From an uncultured Prevotellaceae bacterium (GTDB lineage: Bacteria; Bacteroidota; Bacteroidia; Bacteroidales; Bacteroidaceae), in contig CASGAM010000037.1 in the NCBI GenBank assembly GCA_949299545.1, positions 107,453 to 171,452 on the forward strand: a stretch of DNA of 64,000 nucleotides. Direction: 5' to 3'. The notes below the pieces were generated by a model, which saw only the letters and a program-made list of their open reading frames with translations, searched no databases and was not told where the DNA came from. Made by a program: the position numbers and the translations under genes. Below are positions 10,316 to 37,690 of this stretch, one piece after another (the first letter of the stretch is position 1; each line of letters opens with the position of its first letter).

Positions 10316-10318
10316 ACG

Positions 10319-10394
10319 CAACCGTTCCTTGCCGAAAATGCAAGCGGTCGCAGCAAAAATTACAAGCGGTCGCTTCTGCAAGGCGACAATTCAC
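10319..10394 (+). repeat. Modular 22/21-nt repeat array, site 1
   Basis: Two perfect cores CAAGCGGTCGC start at 10341 and 10363, exactly 22 nt apart. A degenerate core (CAACCGTTCCT) lies 22 nt earlier at 10319, and a truncated core (CGACA) starts 21 nt later at 10384. Spacers are the A-rich 11-mer agcaaaaatta after the first perfect core and the 10-mer ttctgcaagg after the second. The same core and both spacer types recur at 21142-21219 and 37611-37690. Confidence 0.8.
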
Positions 10395-21105: not shown

Positions 21106-21219
21106 CCGCTTGCAGATTGTCATATTTTAGGACAAAAACTGCAAGCGGTCGCAACAAAAATTACAAGCGGTCGCAGCAAAATTTGCAAGCGGTCGCAGAA
21201 AAAATTGCAAGCGGTCGCT
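21106..21219 (+). repeat. Modular 22-nt repeat array, site 2 (four perfect cores)
   Basis: The core CAAGCGGTCGC occurs at 21142, 21164, 21186 and 21208, an exact 22-nt period. The 11-nt spacers are aacaaaaatta, agcaaaatttg and agaaaaaattg; the last core is followed by unrelated sequence. Before the array, CCGCTTGCAG at 21106-21115 is the reverse complement of CTGCAAGCGG at 21139-21148 and can form a 10-bp stem with the first unit. Confidence 0.9.
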
Positions 21220-37369: not shown

Positions 37370-37462
37370 ATCTCGTAAAGCCCCTCTCATCCCCTACATA
37401 TTGTAAGGCAACGAAAGGAAAGAAAAATGTTCAGGAATGGCCCCCTATCCAATAAGTTTTGC

Positions 37463-37543
37463 AAAACAAACCTTCACTCCTTCGCAAGCTTGTATTATCT
37501 GAAAAACAGGCAATCATGAGTGAAGGTTTGTTTTATTATTCAT
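37463..37543 (+). terminator. Terminator-like hairpin with 17-bp stem and 38-nt loop
   Basis: AAAACAAACCTTCACTC (37463-37479) pairs perfectly with GAGTGAAGGTTTGTTTT (37518-37534), followed by ATTATT. The loop has its own small stem CTG-AAAAA-CAG. The long loop is unusual for a terminator, but the position, 94 nt after the synthetase stop, fits. Confidence 0.6.
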
Positions 37544-37610
37544 CTAACAATTCTTCCCCAGAAACGTATTCACAAACAAAAACAAACGCTACTTCAGAAA
37601 AGGAAAAAAG

Positions 37611-37690
37611 CAAGCGCTCGCAATAAAAATTGCGACCTGTCGCTTCTACAACACGACCTGTCGCTTCTGGAAAGCGACAGGTCGCAGCAA
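37611..37690 (+). repeat. Modular 22/21-nt repeat array, site 3 (variant cores, one inverted)
   Basis: Cores are CAAGCGCTCGC at 37611, CGACCTGTCGC at 37633 (22 nt later), the same at 37654 (21 nt later), and CGACAGGTCGC at 37675 (21 nt later). Spacers are aataaaaattg (11 nt), ttctacaaca and ttctggaaag (10 nt each). The last core, with its preceding G, is the exact reverse complement of the previous type, giving a perfect 13-bp hairpin at 37654-37666/37672-37684 with a 5-nt loop. Confidence 0.85.

Follow-up and report, generated by a model that had tools for sequence, protein, structure and literature searches.

A dispersed intergenic element of quasi-palindromic sites at 21- to 22-bp steps in a Prevotellaceae genome

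Results

The window, by which we mean the whole 64,000-nucleotide stretch of DNA analysed, contains three plus-strand arrays of a short repeated core, designated W1, W2 and W3. W2 (21141..21218) consists of four cores (21141-21152, 21163-21174, 21185-21196 and 21207-21218) in a single orientation, with steps of 22/22/22 and A-rich, 10-nt spacers. The initial annotation had reported the 11-nt core CAAGCGGTCGC four times at exact 22-nt steps at this site and as a 22-nt pair at a second, and both observations were reproduced, with starts at 21142, 21164, 21186 and 21208 and at 10341 and 10363. It divided the repeat into an 11-nt core and 11- or 10-nt spacers, which calls for a small correction: the unit is 12 nt long, including the preceding G or A, and the spacers measure 10 nt (step 22) or 9 nt (step 21). 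W1 (10340..10373) has two cores 22 nt apart, followed by a probable decayed third core, GCGACAATTCAC (10383..10394, plus strand), which lies 3' of the 9-nt spacer TTCTGCAAG and was recognised by eye, outside the core scoring. The left flank of W1 (10318..10339, plus strand) resembles, also by eye, the conserved left flank of element family X, with the consensus ...tCaccgtTt.T.Gc.GAAAaT. At the third site, where variant cores had been noted, W3 (37610..37685) comprises four of them (37610-37621, 37632-37643, 37653-37664 and 37674-37685) at steps of 22/21/21, the last inverted relative to the preceding two. Upstream of W3 lies one arm of a longer element, a CCTTCACTCC...GTGAAGG hairpin (37450..37539, plus strand; arm profile, E 4.6e-11), and no right arm was detected at this locus.

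Matches to the core are more frequent in the window than expected. Allowing up to two mismatches, GCAAGCGGTCGC has 11 matches against 4.7 expected (2 of 100 shuffles reach 11) and GCGACCTGTCGC has 11 against 3.5 (0 of 100 shuffles), while the pattern GYRASSNGTCGC, built post hoc after the sites had been seen, has 6 against 0.38 (0 of 100 shuffles). The string ACAAGCGGT occurs at 10362-10371 in the window and inside other ACAAGCGGTC cores; it equals the uptake-signal core of Actinobacillus-type Pasteurellaceae, most likely by coincidence.

Throughout the source genome (2.3 Mb, 79% complete) the unit is a 12-bp quasi-palindrome, and both sorts of core represent a single variable site, GCNNNNGGTCGC, that can face either way. 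The forms GCGACAGGTCGC, GCAAGCGGTCGC, GCGAGCGGTCGC and GCGTGCGGTCGC each occur in both orientations, and exact copies number 98 for GCGACAGGTCGC and 40 for GCAAGCGGTCGC genome-wide, compared with 0 and 1 for the respective reversed-pattern controls. From the places listed for the core searches we parsed 88 clusters, so that the genome total is at least the parsed number; 14 were single cores and 74 had two or more, and one two-core cluster with a step of 48 was left out. The remaining arrays, at least 73, have steps of 20 to 23 and comprise 51 with four cores, 12 with three, 6 with two and 4 with five. A genome-wide search, as the initial annotation had proposed, thus revealed many further arrays, and the step near two helical turns that it had noted is general: 195 of 199 steps in the 73 arrays are either 22 (104) or 21 (91). 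Cores also lie at or near contig ends of this assembly (C6:2, C9:57, C24:57 and C12:495), which means that the element may interrupt assembly and that its number may be underestimated.

The four-core arrays are strikingly uniform. Their span is 76-78 bp in 51 of 51, the middle step is 21 in 45 of 51, and the steps run 22/21/22 in 25 arrays and either 21/21/22 or 22/21/21 in another 20. This constancy of span and step order indicates a fixed-size element rather than an open-ended tandem repeat. The 10-nt spacers are AGCAAAATTT and its reverse complement, with variants, the 9-nt spacers are CTTGTAGAA or TTCTACAAG and variants of these, and many middle spacers contain GTAG or CTAC. Two sorts of spacer exist, as had been proposed, but free interchange between them is not supported: spacer length follows the slot in the array.

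Unlinked arrays can be near-identical, with pairs sharing 95-99% of positions over 80-95 nt (98.9% and 96.6%, each over 87 nt, in two examples), which indicates that the array spreads as a unit and bears out the earlier suggestion that copies at unlinked sites are related by descent or transfer. In most of the best 60 pairs the similarity stops a few to about 40 nt beyond the array. In some pairs it extends for 100-170 nt; the array then sits in the middle of a larger element whose two arms are inverted copies of each other, each carrying TTCACTCCTTCACC ... GGTGAAGGA. TACA, TTT and AAAAA lie at fixed distances outside this motif in 45 arms that were picked for carrying it. With the arm profile at E up to 0.1, 31 loci had at least one arm and 21 had both, and in 16 of these 21 the arms enclose a parsed array; 57 cluster entries have no arm, a count that includes W1-W3 under alternative names although W3 does carry one. 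Most arrays outside the armed subset have short conserved flanks only. Twenty-two exact arm matches were found, which were inspected for short elements only. By eye, the variable parts of the arms look complementary within one element and differ between elements. Alternating purine-pyrimidine runs such as CGCGCGCACGCACGCGCG adjoin the ends of armed elements at four loci of the source genome (L027, L065, L202 and L206). Judged from these sequence comparisons, the amplifying unit is mostly the whole four-core element of about 77 bp, partly with longer arms, rather than the 22-bp unit alone. The initial proposal of a mobile or amplifying short-unit system accordingly holds for copying between sites, but not for the size of what is mostly copied.

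In related species we found arrays with a similar step and other letters. The exact core is present in only 0 to 2 copies in each of 17 congeners, which are represented by one genome per species and whose compared genes mostly have an identity of about 65-80%. A scan of all genomes for two perfect GCGACNNGTCGC sites 21-22 apart returned 62 stretches, 23 of them from Bacteroidales and 13 of these from a single genome, RUG13285; none of 392 further genomes sampled from Bacteroidales has this exact two-palindrome pattern, and the GCGACNNGTCGC dialect is accordingly sparse. RUG13285 belongs to another lineage, its phosphoglycerate kinase being 80% identical, compared with 95-96% for two congeners. 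Sites that differ from GCGACRYGTCGC at no more than one position number 386 there, against 77 for the reversed control, and among 30 fetched places 23 hold four or five units of this type, with 84 of 92 steps equal to 22 and half-sites that are mostly GCGAC, GCCAC or ACTAC. RUI002, which has a few such arrays, shows no enrichment of GCGACRYGTCGC (30 sites; reversed control, 36).

Within the genus, strand-matches to GTTTCARRSYYYGRAAC number 285 in G009, 34 in G017, 5 in G001, and 1 in G006, with none in the remaining 14 of the 18 genomes, and TTTTGCGCAARA occurs 55 times in G002 compared with 0-9 times in other genomes; reversed controls gave 0 in G009, G017 and G002, each for its own pattern. 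Palindromes of the CTTTGCGGCAAG type in G001 and of the AGTACTCGAGTACT type in G007 also recur at a step of about 22. In G009 and G017 the flanks of some arrays are common to several loci over 130-160 nt, and at one orthologous locus, with flanking proteins 95-99% identical, the array has 4.9 units in G017 and 8.9 in G009. Taken together, these sequences suggest that the layout may matter more than the letters.

Several other repeats and possible carriers came to light in these searches. A Prevotellaceae MAG has a 16-unit array of period 21 (L142:895 onward), far longer than the four-unit arrays, and loci L112, L114, L137, L141 and L143 (contigs PNKH01 of an Isosphaera sp. MAG, a planctomycete) have the palindrome GGTTAGCGACGCGTCGC-AGACGCGTCT-GCGACGSGTCGCTAACC and variants, with two sites 22 apart. 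G107, with 4 exact cores, was rejected as an array carrier on finding an unrelated, protein-like repeat with a unit of about 66 nt (by eye). We also rejected carriage by phages, five patterns having given 2, 1, 0, 0 and 0 stretches in viral contigs, with L168, L169 and L275 being GC-rich and, by eye, apparently unrelated. Carriage by plasmids was rejected as well, the W2 region having no plasmid match.

The prominence of period 22 was assessed by applying Tandem Repeats Finder to 101 stretches, none longer than 20 kb, that came from congeners and members of the family and order. We kept 86 of these, some centred on single core matches or on pgk and pst loci, and left out 15, namely 14 near known arrays or arm matches and the congener stretch L375, which has two period-16 arrays. 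Among noncoding arrays with periods of 12-40 in the 86 stretches, 22 of 73 have a period of exactly 22, and the next commonest period, 15, accounts for 8. When coding arrays are included the proportion is 28 of 148. The peak is not accounted for by coding repeats, as 22 is not divisible by three. Block-shuffled sequence gave period 22 in 1 of 39 arrays and 200 kb of E. coli K-12 in 0 of 14, the latter being a small control in which the Bacteroidales rate would give about 3.

Palindromy beyond that of shuffled units (p<=0.01) was found in 6 of 44 noncoding units of 21-24 bp and in 0 of 96 units of three other classes. With the near-array stretches left out and coding units included, the corresponding figures are 3 of 53 units of 21-24 bp against 0 of 59 others, or 9 of 53 against 2 of 59 at p<=0.05. 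Only 9 of the 44 noncoding units of 21-24 bp are palindromic at p<=0.05, so this class may be mixed. We also scanned the window, together with the stretches from congeners and family members, for pairs of palindromes. An ORF mask left only 125 of the 1,178 kb as intergenic; this part held 26 pairs, of which 11 had lag 22, and the masked part held 23, of which 3 had that lag.

The position of the arrays relative to genes was judged from crude longest-ORF calls, with coding and noncoding split at 250 aa. The 73 arrays of the source genome lie in 23 convergent, 42 tandem and 3 divergent gaps, with 5 of indeterminate orientation, so the initial description of the arrays as intergenic and downstream of genes holds there. 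Other gaps in the array loci divide as 7 convergent, 17 tandem and 9 divergent of 33, and all gaps in the window as 2, 15 and 4 of 21. In RUG13285, 16 of 27 arrays are intergenic (convergent 9, tandem 3, divergent 2, indeterminate 2) and 11 lie inside an ORF call. The downstream preference is thus clear in the source genome, with weak evidence for it in RUG13285, and it is absent from a set of 35 arrays (29 congener, 4 family and 2 window), among which 12 are in divergent and 8 in convergent gaps.

W1 (10340-10394) and an array of G002 (L320, near 13400) both lie directly upstream of nth, which encodes endonuclease III, and their units are unrelated. By eye, no array was seen at the nth locus in G001, G007 or G012, and the shared position may therefore be due to chance. 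A FopS paralogous sRNA of Bacteroidetes (Rfam RF04319) was found at L003:1203-1274, about 230 nt from an array; RF04319 was not found at 20 further loci. Together with the named genomes in which the arrays recur and the protein identity to these, this sRNA match places the source genome, by inference, in Bacteroidales.

The location of the arrays downstream of genes in the source genome raises the question of whether they act as RNA. As has been proposed for REPs, the palindromes might form stacked hairpins in the transcript that end transcription or protect the mRNA. Any two cores are able to pair, and by eye the arms are hairpins with A and T runs outside, much like a bidirectional terminator. 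Yet the mean folding energy of 51 source-genome arrays (-40.1) equals that of the same arrays with cores permuted (-39.6, sd 1.1, 40 rounds), and Rfam matched no family at threshold on any array in the window and at 27 loci. Across the spacers of RUG13285 arrays, the types of half-site agree in 40 of 109 cases where 50 are expected, and mirrored positions (n=19) agree without excess: 8 against 9.4 for 1-8, 4 against 7.3 for 2-7, 12 against 11.1 for 3-6 and 13 against 12.1 for 4-5. The order of the cores thus shows no selection for RNA folding, pairing between sites seems to be unselected, and we regard a 3'-end RNA element as an improbable account of the arrays.

The two halves of one RUG13285 unit agree in 74 of 141 cases, compared with 62 expected, and agreement at positions 5-8 is 14 compared with 10.3. 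Half-sites are therefore not wholly independent, and slight agreement within a site is what a dimer site would yield. That each site is symmetrical, that successive sites are two turns apart, and that this spacing is retained when the letters differ all point to recognition of double-stranded DNA.

Discussion

We propose that the arrays are a non-autonomous, intergenic interspersed repeat of the BrickBuilt or BIME sort, with a body of about four quasi-palindromic 12-bp putative dimer sites at 21- to 22-bp steps, a reading to which we assign a probability of roughly one half. The element combines high copy number, fixed size and near-identical unlinked copies with a preference for downstream gaps in the source genome, a longer armed version and arrays of the same step in relatives. 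Given the 21- to 22-bp steps, its sites would lie on roughly one face of the helix, along which a dimeric protein may bind the double-stranded palindromes cooperatively. The element could be copied by a recombinase or transposase acting in trans, and the candidate binder would be either this same recombinase or, on the host's side, a nucleoid protein or a topoisomerase. A family repeatedly renewed from a few active copies would also be expected to give one homogenised dialect per species.

More tentatively, a Bacteroidales-wide system may write palindrome arrays of two-turn step into intergenic gaps, with the letters replaced lineage by lineage as a fast-evolving DNA-binding or recombinase protein co-evolves with its arrays, and BrickBuilt would then be one dialect among others. 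A wider class behind BrickBuilt-like arrays is possible. If layout is conserved while sequence turns over, something reads spacing and symmetry. Were this true, it would offer a testable handle on a protein, DNA-binding or mobilising, of one of the major bacterial groups of the gut, and the isolated BrickBuilt case would become a class open to survey.

Alternatively, the arrays may be sites for a host chromosome-organising protein, such as gyrase or a nucleoid or segregation protein, that are kept by selection and dispersed as a by-product. A step that stays near two turns while the letters differ between species, the four sites per array, and the location at gene ends, where positive supercoils gather, would all be in keeping with such a role. 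On the other hand, the core is nearly absent from close relatives, which would be odd for a housekeeping protein unless the two co-evolved fast, and near-identical whole copies point to copying, so we consider a host site array rather unlikely. Simple slippage of palindromic seeds, with neither function nor helper, would suit the differing unit numbers at the orthologous locus of G009 and G017, but it is very improbable, leaving unexplained the unit shared by scores of unlinked sites, the fixed four-core size and the period of 22 common to unrelated units.

Our findings can be set beside several known systems. Like CRISPR arrays, those described here have short regular repeats; unlike them, their repeats are 12 nt long and their spacers, of 9-10 nt, recur genome-wide in two sorts. 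The likeness to MITEs lies in a short, noncoding, dispersed element with long inverted arms in a subset, and a target-site duplication and a parent transposase would be further marks of such an element; arms were undetected at most arrays. With REPs, BIMEs and REPINs, as these are presented in the excerpted texts of PMC3733652, PMC12306157, PMC2817692 and PMC3116915, the arrays have in common short palindromes that lie outside genes, often 3' of them, in many copies and in mixed orientation. They differ in having a regular 21- to 22-bp step and four sites, and no constant GTAG or CGTC tag.

Membership of a REP or BIME family moved by a Y1 (RAYT) transposase would account for palindromes that lie outside genes, face either way and are present in many copies. 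The GTAG or CTAC of many middle spacers in the source genome matches the REP tag described in the excerpted text of PMC3733652, which also reports CGTC-tagged palindromic repeats in Bacteroidetes. A Y1_Tnp match was found in G009, which is rich in arrays. This is, however, the only one among the 18 genomes of the genus, source genome included, even though G001, G002, G007 and G017 (99% complete) have arrays; the source genome, at 79% completeness, has no match, and the G002 and G009 units used as search patterns contain no GTAG. Such a family is thus hardly probable, and a Y1 transposase is unlikely as the helper. The initial annotation had allowed that there might be no further arrays, or that chance or a known REP family might explain them; we found none of these to be so, no Y1 transposase having been found in the source genome at its 79% completeness and no Rfam match at threshold on arrays in the window and at 27 loci. 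REPs and BIMEs therefore resemble the arrays in place and palindromy, while their tag and transposase are inconstant or missing here.

A closer parallel comes from Porphyromonas gingivalis, itself a member of Bacteroidales. BrickBuilt, as the excerpted text of PMC4596501 describes it, is an intergenic MITE in which 23-nt tandem units lie between a leader and a tail, with 19 copies in strain ATCC 33277, units predicted to form long stem loops, and TIRs that match IS5-family elements; the same text cites 22-nt tandem repeats in strain W83. Among the literature matches listed, and in the parts of those sources drawn on here, no description of arrays of this kind in Bacteroidales appeared besides the P. 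gingivalis work. In BrickBuilt as in the present case, tandem units are embedded in a noncoding element that is dispersed between genes and bordered by flanking segments, which here are found in a subset, with arms on both sides at 21 loci and around a parsed array at 16. The printed unit consensus of BrickBuilt is circularly palindromic at 18 of 23 positions (p ~0.006) when R is read as A and Y as T, and at 14 of 23 when the ambiguity letters are kept. Its unit, AGAYCATARTATCCTCTCRTRTG, is unrelated to the GCGACAGGTCGC and GCAAGCGGTCGC cores, and its unit number, 1 to 22.8 in the excerpted PMC4596501, contrasts with the four that predominate here. Although it differs in sequence, in the number of its units and at its ends, BrickBuilt is the nearest described system to the arrays that we report.
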